Assembly (NCBI RefSeq): GCF_910592395.1
Contig: NC_088326.1
Location: 3,415,001-3,479,000, forward strand
Origin: Lineus longissimus
Taxonomy: Eukaryota > Nemertea > Pilidiophora > Heteronemertea > Lineidae
Reading direction: 5' to 3'
Length of the DNA stretch: 64,000 bases
This document shows positions 2,970-57,300 of the stretch, one piece after another. Numbering within the stretch: position 1 is the stretch's first letter; every line of letters starts with the position of its first letter. Made by a program: the position numbers and the translations under genes. Below the pieces are notes generated by a model. The model ran no database searches and was not told the origin of the DNA. It was given only the letters and a program-made list of their open reading frames with translations.

Positions 2970-5900
2970 ATGGGTCTCAGTTGTGGTATGAAATGCCTGA
3001 AGTACATACTCTTCACCTTCAACATTATTCTCTTCGTAAGTAAAATTATTCTTGTCGGGTATTTCCGTGATCTTCGCGACGTAGTCCTCGGAATTGTCCG
3101 GACCTCAACTCCCTCACATCGCACTTGGTCGTCAAAATTAAACTATTGATGACGTCACAGTAGTGACAGCCAATCGTGTATCTGATCGCGTTACTCGCTA
3201 AATCTTCCAGAAAGCATTTAAACAGATGTTGGCTGATATATACCTGAAACCAAACGATTTTTTCAGGGTTTTTTGGGCTTTGTGGTCCCGAATTAACTCA
3301 AAACATATTTAGCAGCACATTTTTAAAGAAAATAGTAAATAAATGATCTATTGTATTTTTTTAAGCGTCTTACAAATATCGTTACTGTTAAAGAGTTAGA
3401 ACAGTTTACAAGAGATCTGTATAAAATATCATCAGAGATGTGTTCAAATTTGATAAACTTCTTGTCCGTTTACCTCCTAGATATAGAACTTTAAAGAGTG
3501 GCATTTTTTCTGAATGGTTAGAGCGCCAAGGTGAACGTTCTGAGCGTCCCCTGCCCAGTAAACATCAAGAAGTTGTGGAAACCTTTTTCTGCTTTCAGCT
3601 GATTGGCGCCGCCCTTCTTGCCGTTGGTATCTTTGTCGCGGTGGACGCATCCAAACTCTTCGAACTTTTGGATAAAGTGAGTTTCACGCAAGAGGTTGGA
3701 GGCCTTGATGTTAAATCCCTTCTGAAGCAAAGCGCCTACGTCATAATAGCGTTCGGTGCTTTCGTTTTCCTCGTTGCGTTCCTCGGATGCTGCGGCGCGA
3801 TCAAAGAAAGCAAGTGCATGCTGGGAACGGTGAGTAGATGTTTAAAGCTGATACAAATATTTTTTGGTTCTACAATTGCCTTCAAAGAAGGTTAAAATCA
3901 AGCGGCGTAAACGTTTTGTGCCTGGTTGCTCAAAACAGATTTGTCACTACCGCTGACGTTAACTCAACTTGACGTTATCACCTTCAGATAAGCCCTTAGA
4001 CTTAAGCTAACGCCAGCGTTAGTGACAAAACTTGTTTTTAAGAACCGGTTCTGATGACACATATTCAAGTGTTATGGATATGTGACAAAAAGTATTACAG
4101 TCATAAATTCAGGCCAAGAAAAAGAGAAAGGAAAAACGCGTGACGACACTTAAGAAGTTTTTATACATCTATTCTTATACATCTGTCTGCGTTATACATG
4201 TATCGATCGCACGGCCATAAATCTTACATATTGACAAAAATAACTTACGCATCATCTCGAAATGACGCGCACTAACCACGCTGCGCCGCCCTCGGCAGAT
4301 TGCAAAACCAACTACTCCCGCCTGGGGTAATTTATTCACAGCCACACCGAGAGAAGAATTGTAGTCACTCCGTGTCTATCGGGCCAATATTTCAACCAAT
4401 TACAGAGTGTGGAATAGAAAAGATCACCAACTGTAAAATGATAGACAGAATATGACATCCCGCACTCTTTAAATTGATAAGCAAAAATAACTATCAAGTG
4501 ATTTTTACTACTCTTATACAATGTAGTCCGTCTTGCACCGACTGTCAAATTAGTGGTTTTCACTATCGAAATAGTTAAACAGGTTCATTGTTACTTTTTT
4601 CTACTTTTTTTAGCTAGAACAACTAATTGTTTATTGTCACTACTATTTTACTTATTACACGTACAGTTGGTGCACTAGGGACTACTAGATCAGTTGTTTT
4701 TACGTAAAACTTTAAGAGTGCGTGGTGTAGAATTAATTTCGCTTGTTTTGTCATAAATTTATGTTGTTGTTCCTTTATGGTTTCAGTATGCCACGATCGT
4801 CTGCATCTGTCTGATTGTTGAGATCGCCGCCGTTATTCTGGCCGCCGTATTCTGGAATCACGTGAGTTACGTTTTCTACATCCTAATCACGTGATAGTCT
4901 CTAAAACCACATTCCACTTACGGGCCACATTCCACTTACGGGCCACATTCCACATACGGATCACATTCATCATACGGACCACATTCCACATACGGGCCAC
5001 TCATTCGACATACGGGCCACAGTTCACATACCAAAAACCCATCATTGAGTTTCTTTTAAATCGAGTTCATCGCGATGAGTTCATTGTGTTGTCCCTCCGC
5101 GCAGCAATCCAAATTGCACAAAGTCGATCACTGCGCGGAGGGCTCACATTCGGAATAAAAATCTGGAAAACCTGATACATGTACTTCCGTCGGTTTTGTA
5201 ATTTTTCCATTTTCTGTTGAAATTGGTGATGGAGCTTGTCGGGTGGAAGGTGACTGGGCAGTGACAGCCTGGCAAAGATGCCCTTAATTACTCCGTTAGT
5301 CCTTAACGAGTCTATGTTTCACTTATGACTTCAGACTAAGGCGGAACTGGAGAATTATCTCAACAGGACCATCATTGAAGACTACAATGGATACAATACG
5401 AAACTGGTTCCTACGGGTAATACGGATTCACTTGCATGGGATTTTATTATGATATATGTAAGTATTTTGATTTATATTTTTCAAATAAAAAGGCCGTAAG
5501 TGACTAACAAAAGGTCGACACATATGTATATACGCCTGGGTGCAGCTGGCCATGGGGCCCAGGGCCTGGTTTTTCAAGACATACATCTTGGCGCTAACCC
5601 CTCAGTTGTTTCAACAACCGAATACTTGTGCCATCCAAACTCACTGTTGCCGCGTACTGCCCTCATCGCAGAAGAAAAAACATGTAGATGCCAAGAGATG
5701 CGATTTCAGGCTTTTCCCGACATTTAATGTCATTGATAGTTATCTCTTAAATAAAAATTGTCAAATCAAGATGCTCTTGTAATAGGATTCCGTGCCATTA
5801 CTGTCGGGCAAGCTTTACAAAAACTGAATTTCTCTCCAGTTATTTTCCAACAGTCCTTGCCAAAAGTGTCTCAGAGACCCCCTCCCCCAACAGAATGAAA

Positions 5901-8900
5901 TATTTTTGTTTGTATTTCGATAATGCTGATAGCTTATATATTGCAATTTTAGTTCAAGTGTTGCGGCCGCAATAACTACAAAGATTTCGATAATGCTTTA
6001 AAGTGGAACAAGACATTGCCCGACGGCAAGGGAACCGCGAAGATCCCTCCCGCCTGCTGCGTCATGAAAGACAATCATAAGTTCCCGAACATGACCATTA
6101 AAGATCCGAAGTGTCCGACAAATCCCACTACTACGAATGCTTACATGAAAGACGTAAGTCTAAAACTAGCCTAATACCATGGAACCCCACGGGTGGCGCA
6201 AAATCGGCCACTGCTGGGGGCTACTTCAAAATAAATGCTAACTGTTATGGAGTGTCAGGGGCCAAGTTCTTTAGATATTTGAAATTTGTAACTGAATTTG
6301 AAAATTTCGAATTGTGTAAATACCTAATGAATATAAATTTCAACAATGCAGTTGTGTAAACAGGTACTAATACATACACACATAGACCAAGGCACATAGA
6401 CATAAAAACCAGGTTTCAGCAAACTCGTATCCATAGCAATCGCCACTATACGATATTGGGTATAACTATTTTCCTGGACCACTAGTAATTGCGGACGGCG
6501 TACCCCTTTAGGAGTGATTGAGCGCCTCCATTCAAAATCAAAAGAATGACATCTTTTTGTGTCACAGAGCTAGCACGTGAATACAAACAAGACTTCCTTT
6601 TTTTGCAGAACCAGGGCTGCCAGAAGGCGGTAGAGGAGAAGATCTCCAAGTATGCCGCCCCCATCATCGGAGTCTGCGCTGCAGTGGCCTTCATACAGGT
6701 GAGCTGTGGATTGCAACGAATTATATACAATGTCAACTAGGACAGCACCACCTTTTCCGTGGCATTCCCTGATATTCGGCCTGGTTTCCGAAATTTCATT
6801 CCCAATCCGTTTCATTCAACTCTGCTTTTCCTTTTCACTTACTACCATTCCTTTACACTTACTACCATTCCTTTACACTTGCTACCATCCTTATAATACT
6901 ACCATCATCTACACTTACTACCATTCCTTTATATGTTCTACCATTCCTTTACACTTACTACCATTCCTTTACACTTGCTACCATCCTTATAATACTACCA
7001 TCATCTACACTTACTACCATTCCTTTATATGTTCTACCAATCCTTTACACTTGCTACCATTCCTTTACACTTGCTACCATTTCTTCACACTTACTACCAT
7101 TTCTTTATATGTTTTACCATTCCTTTACTTGCTACCATTCCTTTACACTTGCTACCATCCTTATAATACTACCATCATCTACACTTACTACCATTCCTTT
7201 ATATATGTTCTACCAATCCTTTACACTTGCTACCATTCCTTTACACTTGCTACCATTTCTTCACACTTACTACCATTTCTTTATATGTTTTACCATTCCT
7301 TTACTTGCTACCATTCCTTTACACTTGCTACCATCCTTATAATACTACCATCATCTACACTTACTACCATTCCTTTATATGTTCTACCATTCCTATACTT
7401 GCTACCATTCCTTTACACTTACTACCATCATCTACACTTACTACCATTCCTTTATATGTTCTACCATTCCTATACTTACTACCAATCCTTTACACTTGCT
7501 ACCATTCCTTTACACTTACTACCATCCTTACTACCATCATCTACACTCCCATTCCTTTATATGTTCTACCATTCCTATACTTGCTACCATTCCTTTACAC
7601 TTGCTACCATTCCTTTACACTTGCTACCATTCCTTTACACTTACTACCATCCTTACTACCATCATCTACACTCCCATTCCTTTATATGTTCTACCATTCC
7701 TATACTTGCTACCATTCCTTTACACTTGCTACCATTCCTTTACACTTGCTACCATTCCTTTACAGCTGTGTTGCCGTGTCTTTATGCTTAGTACATTTCT
7801 TTTACACTTACCGGTACTATTGTATTCTTTACAGTTACTGAGATAATGCTGTCAGCTATTCATCACGAGTTTATTAATTTCACCAGTTAATGAATTAATG
7901 TCAAATTCCGTTCTATTCACACTCGGCCAGCATTGTGTATTCATTCGCGCTTTGCCCTAATTTAAGTGAAACATTGAGTCCTAGACGAAATGTCGGATTG
8001 TCAGCTTTTGATTTATGTTTTTCTGTCATACAGGATGTATCACAAAAAAGTAACATGTGTAGTTTTGACCACCAACTCCCGCCGCTTAACCTCGGAACCA
8101 CTTTTCGAGATTTATAAGAGAGAATGCTCTACTTAATTTTATCATTGTGTGTTGCTTCTGTCGTATAACCGTGCCAGTGTGATTGGGAAATTTGTCCTTG
8201 GAAAGACTGTCCCGGTAACAAAGGATTCTATTACGTGCCCTGAGGAATCAAATGTTTTGTGTTTTCATAGAGCCATCTCTTAGTCTTACCAAATAATAGG
8301 GACGGACACTTTTCCAGGGGACACTTAAAAGTGCTACGCCGACTCCATGCCGAAATTACATGCCTCCGGTTTCGGATACATTTGGGAGGACACGAAATAC
8401 TGTATTCATGGCTCTTCTGATACACCCTGTATACACTTGCCAGGCCTGCTCACGGCTCTAGGAAAATTCGTCCCCGGAAAATTCGTCCCCGGAAAACTCG
8501 TCCCCGGAAAATTCGTCCCCTAGGAAAATTCGTCCCCGGATAATTTGTCCCCGGATAATTTGTCCCCGAGGATAATTCGTCCCTGGAAAATTCGTCCCAG
8601 AGGAAAATTCGTCCCCGGAGTATTTGTCCCCGAGGAAAATTCGTCCCTGGAAAATACCTCCCCAGAAAATTTAACAAAAGTTGAAAGTTTCTGACATTAC
8701 TTTCTGGAAATAACTACTACTTACTACTTTCGACTTTTCTCATTCAGCGTTATATCTCTCTTTACTACCCTACTAGCTAGTTACCTACCCCACTATTTTC
8801 ATAGTTGGTAGAGGTAGGCAGGCGAAATAATTTATATTTTTTCAAATAAGTATTTTTACTGGTCAGAATGAAAGAAAAGCTCTAAATTCTTCAATAAAAT

Positions 8901-10922
8901 ATTTCGCCTGCCTACCTCTACCTACTATGAAAATAGTGGGGTAGGTAACTAGCTAGTAAAGGAGATGTTACACTGAATGAGAAAAATCGAAAGTTGTAGT
9001 TATTACTCCAGTCCATTCGACAAGACTAAAGAGTCTTAGAAAGTAAAGTCAGAAACTTTCAACTTTATAAAATTTTCTGGGGACGAATTATCCTCGGGGA
9101 CAAATTTTCCGGGGACGAATTTTCCAGGGACGAATTATCCTCGGGGACGAATTATCCTCGGGGACGAATTTTCCAGGTACGAATTTTCCTTGGGGACGAA
9201 TTTTCCGGGGACGAATTATCCGGGGACGAATTTTCCTGTAACCCCTGCTCACACAGTTTATGCCTCCGCGCCTCAGCTTACTTACACTTTTTCCCTTGCA
9301 GCTTTTTGTTGTTATTTCCGCCTGCTGCGTGTGTCACAAAATTGGCAAAGAGGACTAATGGTAAATCGCAGAGAGGAAACCGAAAGTGCGTCACTTTAGG
9401 TTTCTTCGATGTACATCTTGCATGCAAAATGGTATAGGAGATCTCTCTGTGGTTTTCTACTACTCACTTTTCTTCACACAAATCATCCGGGCCAGACCCT
9501 GCACTGGGACCCGGCAATTTCTTATGTATACTGTGTAGTACCGGGTGTAATCCGCGCCCCAAGAGCCAATCTTGACACTAGAGGCGCTTATTTCGTTCCT
9601 TATTTTAGATTTCGCACCCTGTGAGTTTGCACAAGAGCCTGCCATACATGCTCCCCGCAGCTGGCAATGCAGTGTGAAGCGGTCATGCATGAATATCATT
9701 GCTTTGGTGAATGGCCCATAAAATGAGAGACAAAACTTTACGCCATCATTTCGAGTACTGAGGTTCCCGTAGTTCCTAGAAAATGTTGGATTTCCTGCTG
9801 CCGATTATATCTAGCACCCAGGTGAGGAAATCAGGGGTTCCTCAGGATGATCTAGCACTGAACTAGCACCTGTAAGAGTTGGGACAGGTCATACAGAGTA
9901 GGCTAAAAAACCGGGTGCGCTGTTCAATAGATTGGCATAAAGAATGAGGACATTATCGTAATGATGGCGGCGTAGGCGTTCATTGGATTTGAGTGTGTGT
10001 GTCGGCCGGGTGATCAGCGGTTGCACTGTCCAGTTTTGTGTGTTTTTCCTGTTTCGGACAAAAATCTAAATATTTCGAAAATGAGCTGTCTAAACTTCTT
10101 TTTTTCACATTTTTCTCGAGCATTGGCTATGGTGCTTCATTTTTGGATATACATATAATAAATTGTTTTAAAACTCGCGGTATTTAGTGATTTGGGGGTC
10201 TGGTTTGAAATTTTTAGTTTGGGGTGGCGGCAAGTGCTCGGAGCCAATTACTGACTTGTGTTCATTAAATAAATGAGATGAGTTCGTGTAGAAAGAGGAG
10301 ATCACGGCCTTTCAAGTGGGGTACAGCGCCAATTGGTCATTCTTTGAAAAGCGCCTTCGAAACGCATCTGACGTTACGCACTTTCGGGAAAACTGAAGTG
10401 ACGTACGAAGAGACGCGGCCCCGCTACCCTATTTGAGAGGTTGTGCAACCGGCTAACGACCTGCTGACCACATCTTCAATTTTTAGACTGAATTATAGTC
10501 GGATCGCTATGAAGCATTCTTAAATGTATCTTTTTTCTTTTTCATTATAGTTATTCGTCGTTATTGCTGCATGCTGTTTGTGCCATAACGTTGGAAAGGT
10601 TGATGACGAAATGGCATAAGGTGTGAGTCCACGGCAGTGATGTTTTTAAATGGGTTAAGAGAGATCAGTATTTGTTACCGACGCCATTTTTTTTCTTCTC
10701 GTTTTAGTTGTTCGTGATCATTGCGGCATGTTGCGTGTGCCACCAGATAGGGAAGGGTGACAATTATGCTGCGTGAGTGTCGTCACAGGGCACTGACATA
10801 TAGAGAGGTTGAGACATCATTATTTACGTTCAGCCCTTCTTGTTTCGTTTTAGTTGTTCGTTATTATTGCTGCTTGCTGCGTGTGCCGCCATATTGGGAG
10901 AGACGATGACTTTAAGGGCTGA
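2970..10922 (+). CDS. Tetraspanin (CD63/CD9-like), seven-exon gene with alternative last exons
   Basis: Four-pass membrane scaffold protein that organises receptors and traffic at plasma or endosomal membranes. Coding exons: 2970-3035, 3599-3829, 4787-4861, 5335-5457, 5953-6153, 6609-6698, then one of four terminal exons (9302-9358, 10551-10619, 10708-10776, 10854-10922). All joins are in phase 0. The protein is 280 residues with the first terminal exon and 284 with the others. It starts MGLSCGMKCLKY; membrane helices lie at about 12-38, 69-98, 100-122 and 247-271. The large outer loop carries the hallmark CCG (FKCCGRNNY), PACC and the further cysteines of DPKC and NQGC, six in all. The second helix ends in the conserved LGCCGA. 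Juxtamembrane cysteines at each helix end are likely palmitoylation sites. The start ATG is the first in frame after a short 5' exon region. Family assignment is firm; the exact orthologue is not. Confidence 0.93.
3912..4052. repeat. Short foldback (inverted-repeat) element
   Basis: The left half (GGTTGCTCAAAACAGATTTGTC region) is an imperfect inverted copy of the right half (GTGACAAAACTTGTTTTTAAGAACC). About 140 bp in total within the second tetraspanin intron. Likely a small MITE; no second copy recognised in the window. Confidence 0.5.
4903..5035. repeat. Short tandem repeat, about 17-18 bp unit
   Basis: Seven or so copies of a unit like CATTCCACTTACGGGCCA, increasingly degenerate to the right, in the third tetraspanin intron, 41 bp after exon 3. 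The open frame through it is not coding. Confidence 0.8.
6270..6515. mobile_element. Dispersed element, family C (copy 1)
   Basis: Shares the blocks TTTGAAAATTT, CAACATTGC(A/C)GTTGTGTA and TTTCCTGGACCAC(T/C)AGTAATT with 22125-22345 and 49158-49400. The cleaner copies end in TTTAAAG and CCCTTTAA. No coding potential; probably a MITE. Confidence 0.55.
6835..7792. repeat. Pyrimidine-rich minisatellite (TTACTACCATTCCTTTACAC)
   Basis: About 45 copies of a roughly 20-bp unit with higher-order blocks (TTGCTACCATTCC, TATGTTCTACCA, CTACCATCATCT) in tetraspanin intron 6, 140 bp after exon 6. Almost purely pyrimidine plus A on the plus strand. Long open frames through it (up to 361 codons) are a by-product of the repeat. 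Confidence 0.95.
8454..9243. mobile_element. Foldback transposon with tandem-repeat arms and 9-bp target duplication
   Basis: A long inverted repeat. The outer arms are arrays of GGAAAATTCGTCCCC on the left (8460-8670) and its complement GGGGACGAATTTTCC on the right (9078-9237). The inner arms are complementary too: 8772-8835 (ACTAGCTAGTTACCTACCCC) pairs with 8900-8960. The spacer is about 60 bp. The same 9 bases, CCTGCTCAC, flank the element at 8445-8453 and 9244-9252. Arm structure plus 9-bp duplication recalls foldback or Mutator-type elements. It ends 50 bp before a tetraspanin terminal exon. Confidence 0.85.
9302..9358 (+). CDS. Tetraspanin alternative last exon 7a
   Basis: Preceded by a strong polypyrimidine tract and CAG (9299-9301). 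It encodes the second half of membrane helix 4 (LFVVISACCVC) and a seven-residue tail HKIGKED, then TAA. In phase with exon 6. Candidate AATAAA signals follow at 10157-10162 and 10268-10273, so this form could end before exon 7b. Confidence 0.88.
   Translation, partial: LFVVISACCVCHKIGKED
10551..10619 (+). CDS. Tetraspanin alternative last exon 7b
   Basis: Acceptor TTCATTATAG at 10541-10550. Encodes LFVVIAACCLC and the tail HNVGKVDDEMA, then TAA. It starts in phase 0 like 7a, 7c and 7d. No AATAAA lies between 7b, 7c and 7d, so choice among these three probably works by alternative 3' splice sites within one shared 3' end. Confidence 0.85.
   Translation, partial: LFVVIAACCLCHNVGKVDDEMA
10708..10776 (+). 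CDS. Tetraspanin alternative last exon 7c
   Basis: Acceptor CTCGTTTTAG ends at 10707. Encodes LFVIIAACCVC and the tail HQIGKGDNYAA, then TGA. The stop lies inside a GTGAGT hexamer (10773-10778) that resembles a 5' splice site. Confidence 0.85.
   Translation: MFVIIAACCVCHQIGKGDNYAA
10854..10922 (+). CDS. Tetraspanin alternative last exon 7d
   Basis: Acceptor TTTCGTTTTAG ends at 10853. Encodes LFVIIAACCVC and the tail RHIGRDDDFKG, then TGA. It has the same length as 7b and 7c; differences among the four copies in the helix part are mostly silent or conservative, as expected if all are used. Confidence 0.85.
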   Translation: MFVIIAACCVCRHIGRDDDFKG

Positions 10923-11454
10923 TCAGTGACGTCACGTAAATAGAGAGGCTTAGATATATCAGTAGTTTCCATTCCATACAGGTACGAATGTAGGCTTACG
11001 CAGGCTAAGGCAGCCATAAAAAGAAAAACAAAAATTGATAGACATTGACACTGGCAATATTAGTGCGATTATTACTTCAAGTTGATTACGAAAAGTGGCT
11101 TCAATCTTATTCTATGTACTAAAACTTCATAATTTCTGCTCATAGCATTATTTCATTGACATCCAAGTAAGACCGGATTTATACTTAATCCACACTTGTT
11201 GACATCAGATACAATAAGAGGTGTGAGAATTTCTTAGAAAATTCATCCCGATGCTAAATGCGTTGAACACGTACACCAGGATATTTCTAAACCTGTCTAT
11301 TCATTTGAAAACGCAGTAATTGATGACGTAAATATTGTAAATACCATGTCATTGTTTTTGGGCACACAGCATTTTCAAACTTCTTTAATGTTTCATCTGA
11401 ACAGGAAGCATCCCCCTCTAAATAGATTTTTAGACTTTTGTTAAAAGGACACGT

Positions 11455-11755
11455 TTTGTTAAAGGAACAAGATATGTTGTTTTTTCGTACAAAAATGGTT
11501 TCCAGCGGGACCGTGACTTCCCCTAGTATGATCCGAAAGTATCAAACTGCAATATTAGAAAAGAATACACCAGTCACCCGACCTTAAATAGGCAATCCGT
11601 TTTCCAAAACCGCCTCAAACATTTGTGAAAGTCGACAAGACTCAGTGTCGTGGTATTGCAGGTGGCGGCACATGGATTGGTGGCAATATGGGGTATCATC
11701 CTCTGAATGAACTCCCACTCAAAATCAAATCCTTCCTGTCCCTTTAATACCAAGA
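11455..11755. mobile_element. Dispersed element, family B (copy 2)
   Basis: Shares GGTTTCCAGCGGGACCG and GGTGGCGGCACATGG blocks and the overall order with 2600-2910. The ends are more decayed. It lies in the tetraspanin 3' region; 10923-12520 otherwise shows no gene. AATAAA at 12169-12174 and at 14040-14045 are candidate late polyadenylation signals. Confidence 0.55.
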
Positions 11756-12534
11756 TCGTGCAACACAAATATTGTATCTTTTATATACGTGGTGGATACA
11801 GCTAATCAATCGTATATTCGTATGTATATTGTACGAATACGGCATGTGAAAATAATTCTAATTTTACAACCGTTTGTCTTTATCATTACTCTCATTTCAT
11901 TTGTGTAAGGTCAGTGACATACAATGTTGGCCCAAGGAGTATTATTAGACTTGTCGTTCGGCTGATCAACCATTTTGGCAATACTGTAAACTGACAAAGT
12001 TTCGCGCCGTTTTATTTCGAGTTTCCAAGTCGCAAAAATTTCCGAAAAAAACTAAATTTTCACGATTTTTTTGAGGATGACGAAATTTCTCTCGGTATTT
12101 CGATATAAGAGAATATTTTTTCGCGGTGTTTATGTTCGCGAGTTTAAACTATTCACGAAACTCGCGAAAATAAAACGCCGTGAAAATTTAGATGGCTGTG
12201 ACCGATGCAGTACATACATATATGAGGCGTATTTATGCCTAAAATCAACTGACCTTATGCGAATGAATATAGAGTATTTAAATACGTGTAAAGCAGAAAT
12301 GGTTCAAATACTGTCCAGCAAACTGTCCATCAAATACCGTCAAGCAAACAAACCCGTCCGATCGAATTTGAAATAACAGTGAAGATCTTTTTTTTAGTGA
12401 AGAACTGTAAAACAAATTTAAATATATACATGTATGCACTCTAAAATAGCTTGTACCGCTAGTGGCCAGGCCACGAGTTAATGTATTCCAGGTAGATATC
12501 CTGCTGAGCCGAGTGGGCTGTGTTTAGGTCATGG

Positions 12535-12960
12535 TTGTCAGCTTAATACTTATGGGTTGTCAGCTTAACACTTTGAATGTTGTGAGCTAAACACAATGAG
12601 ACTTAGTGTTGTCAGCTTAACACTTATGGGTTGTCAGCTTAACACTTTGAATGTTGTGAGCTAAACACAATAAGACTTAGTGTTGTCAGCTTAACACTTG
12701 TCAGCTTAACACTGTGAATGTTGTGAGCTAAACACAATAAGACTTAGTGTTGTCAGCTTAACACTTGTCAGCTTAACACTGTGAATGTTGTGAGCTAAAC
12801 ACAATAAGACTTAGTGTTGTCAGCTTAACACTTGTCAGCTTAACACTGTGAATGTTGTGAGCTAAACACAATAAGACGTAGTGTTGTCAGCTTAACACAA
12901 AAATCGTTCTGAGCTTAACACTTTAAGAGTTGTCAGCCTAACATTTTAAGTATTTTCTGA
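12535..12960. repeat. Minisatellite, 67-bp unit
   Basis: Units built from TTGTCAGCTTAACACTT, GTGAATGTTGTGAGC and TAAACACAATAAGACTTAG; GTGAATG recurs at 12714, 12781 and 12848, giving a 67-bp period. The following stretch 13000-13450 has a looser GATAACACTATAAGAGT repeat that looks like an older, decayed relative. 13460-14630 has nothing I recognise. Confidence 0.9.
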
Positions 12961-14639
12961 GTCATCACGATCAGCCCGTGGCATTTTGGTGGTTTATACG
13001 TGGGTTGATAACACTAATACCTGAGTAAAATTGAAATAAAACACTTATTACTAATAAAACTTTCGTCAATTATGCTCAACACTTTAACTTTCGTCAATTA
13101 TGCTCAACACTTAGAGTCATAACGCTGAAGCTAATCAAATGATAACTCTGAGCGTTGTAATACTCCGAGTGATAACACTAAGAGAGTGATAACACCATAA
13201 GATGGATAACACTATGAAACTGATGACACTATAAGAGTGATAACACTATAAGTTTGGTAACACTATGTAATTGATAAAAAACTTTAAGAGTAACATCACT
13301 TGCTGAGATAAACGCCCACAGTGCTAACGCTTCGACTTATAACGTAACAGCAATAATTCAGTAGCAGTTACATAGGCCTACACTAGTTCACCGATAACAC
13401 CATAAAAGTGATGACACTATAAGATTGATAACACTATGATATTGAGAACACTTGCTGAGATATAAACCCATGCTGACGCATAGACCAATAACATTCATAG
13501 CATTTAATAATTTTGTAATCAGTTACATACTCTTTCATACAACTTTTTCCGAGACGTACCAAGGCCAGGGAGGCTTCCATCTCGTGCGTGAGCGATAGAA
13601 AAAGTGCCGGTGACACCAATTTGTGCGATGACACTGACGTCAAGTTACGGCCTGACGTTTGTGCCTACCTCGCAGTAATTAAAGAAGTGGTCGTATAGCT
13701 GTGAAAGTCAAGTATCTGAAGCCATCTTTTGTGCCATATCGATATTAGAATACTAGTTGTTAAATGGAAGTTTAGATTTGTGAACAGTAATATCTAAAGG
13801 CCGATTTTATGCCTTCATAACTCAAATTTGAAATGTCTGATTTTGTATATTTACCAGCAAACAAAGGAACTAAAAGGACGGCCATGATTTAAGGCTGTGG
13901 GTAATATTAGTTGATTTTTCAATATTTTATCATAATGTTATAAACACTAGTTCATGTAGTAGAGTAGAGAAATGTTTCATATTTTTAATCGCTTTGCATT
14001 ATGATACAATAGTCTATCTTTTGTAAGACCGGATATGTAAATAAATTAACTGTATAGAATCCACTTCTGCTTTTATTCTTTGTCATAAATATTCCCGGTA
14101 GAATATATAGGCCACGTCACCTGAAGATCATGATACCGCTAGAAAATGTAGGGCTTAGATCACTATTAACTGTTCAGTAGTACCATGGGACAAATGTGAT
14201 GAAATTTAAAAAAGCCCTGTCATGCCTAAATACTGCCTGGAATGTTAGTTATTTGCTTTCCAAATATCATTTTAGGCTTTTTTATTTTAAATGATATCAA
14301 CTAACAGGATTCAGGTCGCTCTTGAGATAGGAACTCTTTTTCTAGATTTTACGGGGTCGGAAAGATATTCTCTCACAGGCAGTAAACACGGCCCCGCATC
14401 GTGTCATATTCTGGCATGTCTCACAAAAACGCTAATAAAACAATTTAGAATAATTGGAACTTTCTAAAATTCACTTATGACATTGACCAAATATAGGACT
14501 ATATTTCTGCAAAGTTTGATGAAAATTGCAGCAATGAGTTATTTTTGAATCACGAAAATGTATGTACACAAAATGTACACGGACTTTATAGCAGATTAAA
14601 TTGTGTACTGAGCCCTGTATGTACAAGAAGTCATGTCAC

Positions 14640-16822
14640 AGGCGTACTCACGTGCTTTGTCATACTACACCAAGGCGGCAGCACTATACGGTGCCCCAGT
14701 TCGCGCAAGGCGAATTCAAATTCAAATTCAAATTCAAGGCGAATGTAGAAGGCATATCACAGACGTACGTGCTTCGTCATACTACACCAAGGTGGCAGCA
14801 CTATACGGTGCCCCAGTTCGCACAAGGAGACTGTATCACAGACGTACTTACGTGTTTCATCATACAACACCAAGGTGGCAGCACTATACGGTGCACCAGT
14901 TCCCACAAGGAGACCGTGGAAGACGTATCACAGACGTACTTACGTGCTTCGTCATACTACACCAAGGTGGCAGCACTATACGGCGCCCTAGTTCACACAC
15001 GGAGACTGTAGAAGACATATCACAGACGTACTTACGTGCTTTGTCATACTACACCAAGGTGGCAGCACTATACGGTGCCCCAGTTCGCTCACGGAGACTG
15101 TAGAAGGCATATCACAGACGTACTTACGTGCTTCGTCATACTTCACCAAGGTGGCAGCACTATACGGTGCCCCAGTTCGCTCACGGAGACTGTAGAAGGC
15201 ATATCACAGACGTACTTACGTGCTTCGTCATACTTCACCAAGGTGGCAGCACTATACGGTGCCCCAGTTCGCACAAGGAGACTGTAGAAGGCATAACACA
15301 GACGTACTTACGTTCTTCGTCATACTTCACCAAGGTGGCAGCACTATACGGTGCCCCAGTTCGCACAAGGAGACTGTAGAAGGCATATCACAGGCGCACG
15401 TACGTACTTCGTCATACTACACCAAGTGGCAGCACTATACGGTGCCCCAGTTCGCACAAGGAGACTGTAGAAGGCATATCACAGACAGACTTACGTGCTT
15501 CGTCATACTACACCAAGGTGGCAGCACTATACGGTGCCCCAGTTCGCATAAGGAGACTGTAGAAGGCATATCACAGACAGACTTACGTGCTTCGTCATAC
15601 TACACCAAGGTGGCAGCACTATACGGTGCCCCAGTTCGCACAAGGAGACTGTGGAAGACGTATCACAGGCGTACTTACGTACTTCGTCATGCTACACCAA
15701 GGTGGCAGCACTATACGGTGCCCCAGTTCGCACACGGAGACTGTAGAAGGCATAACACAGACGGACGTACGTGCTTCGTCATACTACACCAAGGTGGCAG
15801 CACTATACGGTGCCCCAGTTCGCACACGGAGACTGTAGAAGGCATAACATAGACGGACTTACGTGCTTCGTCATATTACACCAAGGTGGCAGCACTATAC
15901 GGTGCCCCAGTTCGCACAAGGAGACTGTGGAAGACGTATCACAGGCGTACTTACGTACTTCGTCATACTACACCAAGGTGGCAGCACTATACGGTGCCCC
16001 AGTTCGCACACGGAGACTGTAGAAGGCATAACACAGACGGACTTACGTGCTTCGTCATATTACACCAAGGTGGCAGCACTATACGGTGCCCCAGCTCTTG
16101 TACCTTTCTTAGTAAGAAAATTCATTCATTCATTCATTCATGTTCGCACAAGGAGAGGGCAGACGTACTTACGTGCTTCGTCATACTACACCAAGGTGGC
16201 AGCACTATACGGTTAGTAATTTAGCCCCACAGCAGGTATATGGTAGGTCCGGACCGTATGGTGTCGCCCCCTATTATCAGATTCTGTTGTGCAAAGTTTA
16301 TTTTATTACTGTTGATATAGTTGTACACGTTGTATCATTCATTTGTAATAAACAGGATTAAGCATATTTTAGTTTTGTTATTACTATGTGGGGCCTACAT
16401 AGATATTTGTAAAAAGCCCCAGTTCGCACAAGGAGACTGTAGAAGGCATATCACAGACGTACTTACGTGCTTCGTCATACTACACCAAGGTGGCAGCACT
16501 ATACGGTTAGTAATTTAGCCCCACAGCAGGTATATGGTAGGTCCGGACCGTATGGTGTCGCCCCCTATTATCAGATTCTGTTGTGCAAAGTTTATTTTAT
16601 TACTGTTGATATAGTTGTACACGTTGTATCATTCATTTGTAATAAACAGGATTAAGCATATTTTAGTTTTGTTATTACTATGTGGGGCCTACATAGATAT
16701 TTGTAAAAAGCCCCAGTTCGCACAAGGAGACTGTAGAAGGCATATCACAGACGTACTTACGTGCTTCGTCATACTACACCAAGGTGGCAGCACTATACGG
16801 TGCCCCAGTTCGCACAAGGAGA
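14640..16822. repeat. Satellite, 92-bp unit, about 22 copies
   Basis: Unit contains ACTTACGTGCTTCGTCATAC, ACCAAGGTGGCAGCACTATA and CCAGTTCGCACAAGGAGACT. The period is exactly 92 bp over most of the array (for example 15036, 15128, 15220). Since 92 is not a multiple of three the open frames shift each unit. At the right, two copies are interrupted by a 200-bp insert and the whole 294-bp block is itself duplicated (16213 onward and 16507 onward, nearly identical). Confidence 0.95.
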
Positions 16823-54354: not shown

Positions 54355-57300
54355 TCACACCATCGTGTCTGAACCGCTTTTAGAGTATGGAGGCGGTGCT
54401 GCGTCATGTCGTGTGTTCTTGTTCTTATCAGGAACGTACTGACCGATGAATGAGCCATCCTCGTTGAATTGGCCGTTGTCGACTTCACCGTATTCGGCCA
54501 TTGAGTCGCCGTCGTCGTCGTCGCTGTCCAGCGCTTTGATGCTGCCACTAATTGAGGCACGACTTCCACCGATGGGATCTTTCTCGCTAAAAAGAAACGA
54601 AGCATAAAAAAGATGTTTAGATTTTGATCTGACAATACGGTGGCGTTTCGATGATGGATATTGTATTATACCACTTGTCAGAAATGCAATGAAACAGGGC
54701 GTCTTTAAAGGGCTATGCCGTTCGTTAAAAATTTGAAATTGTATTTGAAGCTGCTCACTAAAAATAGCGCTGGGATAGTCTGGCCAGCCTCCAAACAGCT
54801 ATCCTGAAAGACAACTCCACGCACGGGCGTTACATGTAAATACATCACAGATCCTGTGCCTCTGTCTGCACAGTAGCTGGGCAGTTGGCTTAATGGCATA
54901 TGGCTGGAATTCCTGACCTTTTTTGATGGGCACACAGGCATGATGTACACTGGATCAGAGCCTATTTTAATGAACTAAATGACTTACTTCCTCTGGTAGT
55001 CGTTGAATCCACCGTGCTCAGGCTTGTGGAGATCATTCTCCGGAACATTTCCAGTTTTACGCTCATTCTCATCAACTGAAAAACAATTAGGAAGACATGA
55101 GACATTTTTCATTTTGGCAGCTCTACGAAATTTCTTTTTCCTACCAAAAGAATCTGTGAAAATAAAATACTCGTGAAAATTTGGCCATTACGGTACAAAT
55201 AGCATATACAGTTGAACCTCACTTAGTTGACATCTCTCTCAGGACAGCACTTTTCAGTCCTTGATAGAGAGGCCATCTACTGTATTTGTCTGAACACTTG
55301 GTACCACTACAAAGAATATGGTTCCAGGCAAATTGATGGTGACCACAATGACTATCCACCCTCCCTTCCACCCCTTCACAACTCTTCCTCCTCTTCCTTC
55401 TACCTCCCCCATCTTTCCCCTTCTACCTGGGCCATGGGTATGACTCTCCCTTGTTTCTCTTGATTCAGCCGAAAATGAACAGAAGTATAATAATGACCAT
55501 GACTGCTATCATTTCTCCCATCCATCCCTTCTCCATTCTACCCCCTCCTAATCTACCTACCCCCTACCTCTCTACCTCCCCTCCCCATCTACCTCCCCCT
55601 ACTTACCTGGGTATGACTCTCCCTTGTTTCTCTTGATACAGCAGAAAATGAACAGAAGTATGATAATGACCATGACTGCTATCATTTCTCCCATCCATCC
55701 CTTCTCCATTCTACCCCCTCCTACTCTACCTACCCCCTACCTCTCTACCTCCCCTCCCCATCTACCTCCCCCTACTTACCTGGGTACGACTCTCCCTTGT
55801 TCCTCTTGATACAGCAGAAGATGAGCAGAAGGATGATGATGATCAGAATAATTGCAACAATGATTGCAATCCACCACAGGCCCCCTCCTCCGGCAGTTGT
55901 TACTGTAAGAAGAGGTCACAGGGGTCAAATAGCGTAAATTGACCTTGAATGGTTTTTTCGGAGCTACATTCAAGGTCAAATATTGGGTATTGGGTATTTC
56001 AGAGCATATCAGTCACGATGTACCCATACCGATAGGTGCAATGGTCTAATTTGATCATGCACCCGATTACGGGGCAACTCGGCCTATTACCAACTCGGCC
56101 CACCAACTCGGCCTGGGTTATAAATCATCGGTTTATTGGCATAAGTTTTCCTTATATTGTTTTTTTTGTTGCTATATATATAGGCCTACTATTTATTCAT
56201 TCCTGGTGGAAATTTGAAGAGAATTCATCAAGATTTGGAGAAGAAATCCATGAGATCACAGTCATGAATGTGCATTTGGAGTGCTACCGCGACTTTTCCA
56301 CACTCGCCGCCGTTATTTCATGGATTTCTCCTTCAAATCCCAATGAATTTTCTCCAAATTTCCAACGGGAATGAATACATAGTAGGCCTATATATACCAA
56401 CAAAAAACAAAAAAATATAAGAAAAACTTATGCCAATAAACCAATGATTTATAACCCAGGCCGAGTTGGTAGGCCGAGTTGGTAATAGGCCGAGTTGGTC
56501 ATACACCATGCACCCATATCGCTCAATTTTCATAAATATTGCTGTTGTTCGCTTTTTTGTACTAGCACCTTCTATTCACAAAAAGACTTACCTTGAATGA
56601 CTGTGCCATTTGTGTAAACTTCCGCTGTCCTTATAATTCGCTGAAATGGCTTTTCTGTAGTTGCGTAACAGGAGTAATTCCCAAGCGCCTCATCACTCTT
56701 ACCATACTCTTTCACGTAAATTCTCAACGTGTTGTTTGGGAGTTTCTCGATTTTGCCCTTATTCATGATGAGCTTGATGTTGTCATGGTACCAGTCAACG
56801 TGGACCGGTTTGTTGGGGTCGCCAGTAACGCCGCAGTCCAAATTGATGACCATGTCGCGGTTGACGAGCTGGACACCACGCGGGGGCGTGCTGATCACGA
56901 AGGAATCTGGAAGAAACAAACAAGCCTGAACTCCATCCTCCTTGCACAGGACCGAACTTTATCATTGACAACGTTGTTCCGACCCTGCTTGAATTGGCTG
57001 CCATTGTCTCCAAATGGCCTTCACTGGACAATAGATAAAGATTTTGAGCCAGGACTGGATCTCTTTAACATGTGCTTGTACTTGAGGTTCAGTTATATCT
57101 AGTTTCATTTTCTAACAAAAGGAGACATCTGCAGTCAATGTGTGAATGTATAGTCAGCGAGTTGTGATACACAAAATGACCAAAATGGCAGTTTGGAACA
57201 CTGCTAATGGGCAGTGGAGAACACTGCTGATGGGCAGTGGAGAACACTGCTGATGGGCAGCGGAGAACACTGCCTATGGGCAGTGGTGAACACTGCTGAT

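Follow-up and report, generated by a model that had tools for sequence, protein, structure and literature searches.

A tetraspanin gene of the nemertean Lineus longissimus, here called gene W, ends in four homologous last exons, all of which join exon 6 in phase 0. The gene is complete and lies on the + strand (2970-10922) of the 64-kb window that was analysed, which corresponds to positions 3415001-3479000 of contig 20 in a 391-Mb genome; the 160 kb upstream of the window were also examined. Each of the four exons (7a to 7d) has a strong 3' splice site and encodes the second half of transmembrane helix 4 (TM4) with a CCxC motif and a short tail, closed by a stop codon. It is quite probable that the last coding exon was tandemly duplicated to four copies long ago, that all four copies are functional, and that alternative choice of the last exon yields four tail isoforms. 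The four exons are as follows.

9302..9358 (+): last exon 7a, 18 amino acids (aa) and stop, tail HKIGKED; acceptor 10.9 bits
10551..10619 (+): last exon 7b, 22 aa and stop, tail HNVGKVDDEMA; acceptor 11.7 bits
10708..10776 (+): last exon 7c, 22 aa and stop, tail HQIGKGDNYAA; acceptor 11.9 bits
10854..10922 (+): last exon 7d, 22 aa and stop, tail RHIGRDDDFKG; acceptor 9.6 bits

The encoded peptides of 7a, 7b, 7c and 7d are LFVVISACCVCHKIGKED, LFVVIAACCLCHNVGKVDDEMA, LFVIIAACCVCHQIGKGDNYAA and LFVIIAACCVCRHIGRDDDFKG, respectively. Exons 7b, 7c and 7d are exactly equal in length and are separated by gaps of only 88 nucleotides (nt; 7b-7c) and 77 nt (7c-7d), and nucleotide identity among the four copies is 64-70% over the exon. 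An nhmmer model built from the four exons recovers these four in the 64-kb window at E values of 7.9e-14 to 6.8e-15, with no further window match below E 0.64.

Splice sites were scored with a consensus matrix that was not trained on this species. On this scale the acceptors of 7a-7d reach 9.6-11.9 bits, versus 0.7-10.2 bits for the five other acceptors of gene W, and four of the six AG sites that score at least 8 bits in 9290-14200 are the acceptors of these exons. An earlier reading made from the sequence alone (the sequence-only reading) had proposed four complete last exons with divergent tails. Its coordinates, frames, splice sites and tail peptides all proved correct on recheck, and the four tail peptides do differ from one another.

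Constraint on the copies and the repeated unit

The four exons share 16 codons, among which the variable columns number 6 of 16 at the first codon position, 2 of 16 at the second and 14 of 16 at the third (third position versus first and second together, Fisher P=5e-5). The mean pairwise identity at third positions is 0.42. In the six pairwise comparisons over the same codons, pN is 0.08-0.19 and pS is 0.55-1.16, the values of pS above 1 reflecting saturation in the simple count used. The sequence-only reading had described the changes in the helix part as mostly silent or conservative, and both the codon-position counts and the comparison of pN with pS bear this out. Because third positions are strongly diverged while first and second positions are constrained, the four exons look old and look as if all of them have long been kept as coding sequence, held to the same pattern of membrane helix and cysteines.

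The same point can be put against a neutral expectation. In simulations on a star tree, started from the consensus and matched to the observed third-position identity, the mean amino-acid identity averaged 0.14 and never exceeded 0.38; the observed value of 0.74 was reached in 0 of 20,000 runs. The distal ends of the tails are looser than the helix part. Within 7b-7d, 7 of 12 first and second positions are variable in codons 17-22 versus 6 of 32 in codons 1-16 (Fisher P=0.023), a pattern that fits either relaxed constraint or divergence toward different tails, and the data do not separate these two.

The similarity of the copies extends beyond the exons. When non-overlapping flanks were compared, those after 7b, 7c and 7d were alike, with the scores of the 7b-7c, 7b-7d and 7c-7d pairs reached by 0, 5 and 1 of 1000 shuffles, respectively, and the duplicated unit is therefore taken to be about 150 nt long. 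Its last copy can be followed past exon 7d:

10923..10981 (+): flank after 7d, resembling the 7b and 7c flanks; end or remnant of the repeated unit of about 150 nt

This flank is closed by an orphan acceptor at 10982 (8.5 bits), after which neither tblastn with the isoforms nor the four-exon nhmmer model finds a recognisable exon copy. The repeated ATAGAGAGG after 7c and 7d was considered as a regulatory element and rejected; it is read as part of the duplicated unit only, because ATAGAGAGGT units also occur in minisatellites elsewhere in the window.

Intron 6 contains two further repeats. A pyrimidine-rich TTCCTTTACACTTACTACCA minisatellite with about 47 copies of a 20-nt unit (6828-7764) begins 130 nt after the exon 6 donor. 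A foldback-type element (8460-9237) ends 64 nt before exon 7a and consists of inverted minisatellite arms (GGAAAATTCGTCCCC) around an inner 65-nt inverted repeat that is 97% complementary; in the pre-mRNA it could fold into a large hairpin close to the acceptor of 7a.

The body shared by the four putative isoforms is encoded by exons 1-6, every one of them in phase 0 and with GT/AG borders. The helix limits below (TM1 to TM4) were set by visual inspection together with the Pfam alignment.

2970..3035 (+): exon 1, with the start codon, the N-terminus and the beginning of TM1 (MGLSCGMKCLKYILFTFNIILF); donor in phase 0
3599..3829 (+): exon 2, remainder of TM1, then the small loop and TM2
4787..4861 (+): exon 3, TM3
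5335..5457 (+): exon 4, start of the large extracellular loop; single copy in W versus two in gene P (see below)
5953..6153 (+): exon 5, part of the large loop that carries CCG, PPACC and one more C
6609..6698 (+): exon 6, encodes the GC motif and the initial half of TM4; shared donor CAG|GTGAGC

The exon 6 donor has the top score among the six donors of gene W. The spliced protein matches the Pfam Tetraspanin family (PF00335) at 1.8e-50 and 172.1 bits (cut-off 32.1), with residues 10-275 aligned to the whole profile (1-225 of 225), and at E<=0.001 it matches eight different sequences of the PDB, which include CD9 (3.9e-21), CD81 (3.1e-16) and Tspan15 (4.1e-14). The cysteine pattern of the large loop, as read from exons 5-6, is CCGRNNY...PPACC...C...GC and includes both the CCG motif and the paired cysteines; this arrangement corresponds to the six-cysteine type 6-cys-a of deuterostome tetraspanins, as defined in the accessible part of PMC2965184. 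No convincing second copy of any exon other than the last was found in the window by tblastn of the isoforms. Rfam gave no match at gathering cut-offs, and a search of viral contigs returned two pattern matches, neither of which encodes a relative.

Tetraspanin genes upstream and other features of the window

A genome search with a 38-residue peptide spanning TM4 and tail (E<=10) gave 18 matches, 17 on contig 20 and one weak match on contig 8 (E 0.1). Five of the 17 are in gene W (exon 6 and the four tails) and the other 12 lie upstream of the window, where two further tetraspanin genes, Q and P, are located.

Contig 20, about 3263228-3265807: gene Q; exon 1 matched only weakly (E 0.075)
Contig 20, 3270287-3273832: gene P, 148 kb upstream; exons 1-3, two exon 4s, exon 5 and two last exons
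Contig 20, 3271397-3271507 and 3272045-3272155: tandem exon 4s of P, homologous, 111 nt each
Contig 20, 3272837-3272989 and 3273686-3273832: tandem last exons of P, homologous, the first ending CRAIGGDSDTRA and the second CRAIGTESDK

The TM4 intron of gene Q is placed as in W: in both genes it falls 26 residues past the GC/SC cysteine. Three candidates for the last exon of Q pass a filtered scan, and the likely one is IVGILCAVYICKNS, which has the strongest acceptor (14.7 bits).

All exons of gene P are in phase 0 with canonical borders, and its exon 2 ends at 3270918. Both of its tandem pairs lie outside the window and hence did not figure in the sequence-only reading. The tails of the two last exons differ (GGDSDTRA and GTESDK), and the pair shows differences at 11, 4 and 28 of 47 codons at positions 1, 2 and 3, a signature similar to that of W and suggestive of old, constrained copies. 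TM4 lies whole within the last exon in P and is split in W and Q; by parsimony, the last-exon pair of P would therefore have been duplicated separately from the last exons of W, making the two duplications independent. Identities over the 16-residue core (10-13 within W, 13 within P, 9-12 between W and P) come from too short a stretch to show independence by sequence.

Downstream of P there are five more copies of a segment of about 20 kb that starts in intron 2 of P, so that P and its segmental copies together span 3270287-3408731 of contig 20. The copies are 97.4-98.5% identical in DNA over the P exon region, and each contains exons 3, 4a, 4b and 5 and both last exons (exons 3-7) with no internal stops. 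Copy 4 carries an in-frame insertion of 6 nt in exon 4b; the two last exons of copy 5 are 7.5 kb apart. A tblastn search of 3275000-3410000 with exons 1 and 2 of W gave no good match to these exons in the segmental copies, although strongly diverged heads are possible; the same search returned a single weak hit for exon 1, on the minus strand (E 0.055).

The variable codons among the P cassettes comprise nine synonymous and five non-synonymous cases, where 24% would be expected to be synonymous (binomial P=0.0016; exon 4b was counted in five of the six copies, that of copy 4 being left out for its insertion). The coding parts of the cassettes may thus still be under selection, and from this comes the idea that P is one head with six interchangeable ends. 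In such a compound gene, exons 1-2 would be joinable to any of six exon 3-7 cassettes, each offering two loop exons and two tails. This idea is speculative and we consider it unlikely to be right; the sober alternative is that the segmental copies are a recent duplication and have had too little time to decay.

Three other features of the window may be mentioned. An open reading frame (ORF) on the minus strand at 22388-22699 matches the membrane-proximal domain of ADAM17 (2.8e-11) and is perhaps part of a convergent ADAM17-like gene beside the tetraspanin; the ADAM protease zinc motif HExxHxxGxxH does not occur uninterrupted in any of the window's reading frames. Tetraspanins are known to escort ADAM10, and since those that do so belong to another subgroup while W is of the six-cysteine type, no link of this ORF to gene W is implied. 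A second minus-strand ORF (56572-56919) encodes an immunoglobulin domain and is weakly CD47-like. At 16160-16801, beside a 92-bp minisatellite (14834-16094), a 294-bp unit is repeated 2.2 times with 100% matches and is a very recent duplication, as judged from this perfect identity.

Proposed choice of a tail and alternative explanations

In the proposed mechanism, exon 6 would be spliced to one of the four acceptors, 9302, 10551, 10708 or 10854, and the products would be four proteins with an identical ectodomain and identical TM1-TM3, a near-identical TM4 and different tails of 7-11 residues. Both the alternative splicing and its mode of choice are what we infer from the arrangement of the exons. 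In one mode, 7b-7d would act as competing 3' splice sites within one composite terminal exon.

The sequence-only reading had suggested that 7a may have its own polyadenylation, and had taken the absence of AATAAA between 7b, 7c and 7d as a sign that these are chosen as alternative 3' splice sites. AATAAA occurs 58 times on the + strand of the window, or about once per 1.1 kb. The two occurrences in the 1,192 nt after 7a are therefore background, and a private poly(A) site of 7a was discarded as evidence. AATAAA is indeed absent between 7b, 7c and 7d, but gaps of this size are uninformative at the background density.

A second mode would resemble KRAS, with a stop codon beside a donor and the later copies becoming 3' untranslated region (UTR). 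Here 7a and 7b, and perhaps 7c, would be cassette exons with their own stops, and the first copy included would set the tail. Sites that permit this mode were missed by the sequence-only reading: ATG|GTAAAT (5.6 bits) lies 2 nt after the 7a stop, AAG|GTGTGA (7.9 bits) and GGT|GTGAGT (6.1 bits) follow the stop of 7b by 1 and 3 nt, and TGC|GTGAGT (4.7 bits) overlaps the 7c stop. All of these fall within the range of gene W's own six donors (4.1-12.2 bits), and the resulting introns would be 1190, 85-87 and 81 nt long. However, the 7a and 7c donor scores are reached by 5% and 8% of the GT sites in the window, use of the 7c donor would delete the 7c stop, so that the join to 7d would encode a hydrophobic tail in a shifted frame, and no GT above 3.9 bits is found from -10 to +30 nt of the ends of 7d, of the two last exons of P or of the last exon of Q. 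The KRAS-like mode is possible but less likely than not.

Several observations weigh against, or weaken, the proposed reading of W and P. The selection test is coarse, since the exons are short, and it treats the four copies jointly rather than singly. The codon-position bias is not significant (P=0.11) over codons 17-22 of 7b-7d, which form the tail ends, so that protein constraint is demonstrated for the helix part only. A YxxPhi motif, a [DE]xxxL[LI] motif and a C-terminal PDZ motif are each absent from all four W tails, which have the juxtamembrane CCxC cysteines and also an [IV]-G-[KR] step in common. A scan for a Dscam-type docking site (four regions, eight shuffled selector sets each, with the intron 6 minisatellite and foldback element left out) gave nothing clearly beyond shuffled selectors: the best common site, in 9359-10440, reached -18.1 kcal/mol and was bettered by one of eight controls (-15.6 to -19.4), and the other three regions fell inside the control range. 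The scan thus gives no clear support for a docking site. In gene P, the two exon 4s differ at 16, 9 and 18 of 30 codons at positions 1, 2 and 3, so that constraint on this pair is not evident, and the P cassette exons vary no less, at the usual level of significance, than the one intron measured (13/675 versus 11/264 variable, P=0.064, exon 4b left out).

The claim of one locus giving four proteins with different destinations is thus likely right in its first half, in that there are four usable last exons, and unsupported in its second: none of the three kinds of sorting motif is present, and the CCxC cysteines and the [IV]-G-[KR] step are the same in all four tails. Different destinations are a hypothesis that is not legible in the sequence, and a role of the tails in sorting would be a guess. 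Cysteines of the CCxC type are palmitoylated in tetraspanins. According to the proposed mechanism, the different tails would change partner binding or trafficking.

The choice of tail might instead matter for regulation, through mRNA stability or the choice of 3' UTR, and not for the protein. Each choice would also alter the 3' UTR, and the tails offer neither a known protein motif nor demonstrated constraint at their ends. On the other hand, the conservation of amino acids in the helix part of all four copies implies that protein sequence matters there, though folding of TM4 may be all that is required. A purely regulatory role appears improbable, though not negligibly so. Still less probable is the use of a single copy, with the other three being relics that are intact by chance. 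By default one would expect this of tandem exon copies that lack RNA evidence, yet protein, frames and acceptors have been kept in all four copies despite the low third-position identity, to a degree that no neutral run reproduced. That the four copies belong to separate tetraspanin genes whose remaining exons have disappeared, or that the array is an assembly error, is very improbable indeed and was rejected: W does lie in a tetraspanin cluster with recent 20-kb segmental copies, but the stretch between 6698 and 12 kb yielded no further copy of exons 1-6, the 224 kb of window and upstream DNA contain no run of at least 10 N, and the exons are too diverged for assembly duplicates.

Comparison with known systems

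The function of the tetraspanin C-terminal tail has usually been studied by artificial tail swaps. If the four last exons of gene W are used as proposed, four natural tails on one body, together with a separately evolved sister gene, would amount to a natural tail-swap experiment, and tail function could be tested within one locus. At least two independent exon duplications would have affected the tail and one the loop. Should the compound structure of P also be real, the whole cluster would be splice-diversified, with ectodomain and tail chosen combinatorially within one tetraspanin gene family.

No tetraspanin with a tandem array of last exons is described among the literature matches listed, which comprised titles and the openings of abstracts; subscription papers and genome annotations are beyond the reach of such a search, and a record of predicted isoforms may exist. 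The accessible part of PMC2965184 describes tetraspanins as a rigid family, evolving through substitutions and short insertions or deletions, and calls the vertebrate family free from 'internal module duplication'. Genes W and P would be exceptions to this description. The amphioxus tetraspanin cluster in the same source (PMC2965184) is like the W cluster in being clustered and in having expanded in one lineage.

Isoforms of a single tetraspanin locus that differ at a cytoplasmic end are known from Caenorhabditis elegans, where TSP-14A and TSP-14B have been shown to localize differently (PMC8827444). As far as the accessible part of that paper goes, these isoforms differ by 24 N-terminal residues containing a di-leucine-type signal (EQCLL), and the C-terminal tail is common to both; unlike in W, the variable end is N-terminal, and tandem exon duplication is not mentioned in that part (PMC8827444).

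Tandem arrays of homologous exons are familiar from other families. Dscam1 and tropomyosin exon 9 are spliced in a mutually exclusive manner, and tropomyosin also swaps a C-terminal exon in this way. Dynamin 1 is named in the reference list of PMC9882654 as a case of tandem exon duplication with mutually exclusive splicing. Among the literature matches listed, no such case is described for a tetraspanin. The unit in W differs from all three in being a terminal exon with a stop codon in each copy, and an array of more than two such copies would be unusual.

The closest known parallel is KRAS 4A/4B, whose last coding exons are mutually exclusive. There, as proposed for W, one locus with a shared body carries homologous last coding exons in a row, each with its own stop, and these encode different membrane-proximal C-terminal tails with lipid-modifiable cysteines. 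KRAS 4A transcripts run on into exon 4B. The two systems differ in copy number (two versus four) and in protein class (a GTPase versus a tetraspanin), and expression is proven for KRAS while the case for W is built from sequence. In the accessible part of PMC9882654, alternative last coding exons are described as swapping the membrane-targeting tail of KRAS, and exon 4A is reported to derive from exon 4 of NRAS. The copies in W, in contrast to the NRAS-derived 4A (PMC9882654), look like local tandem duplications.

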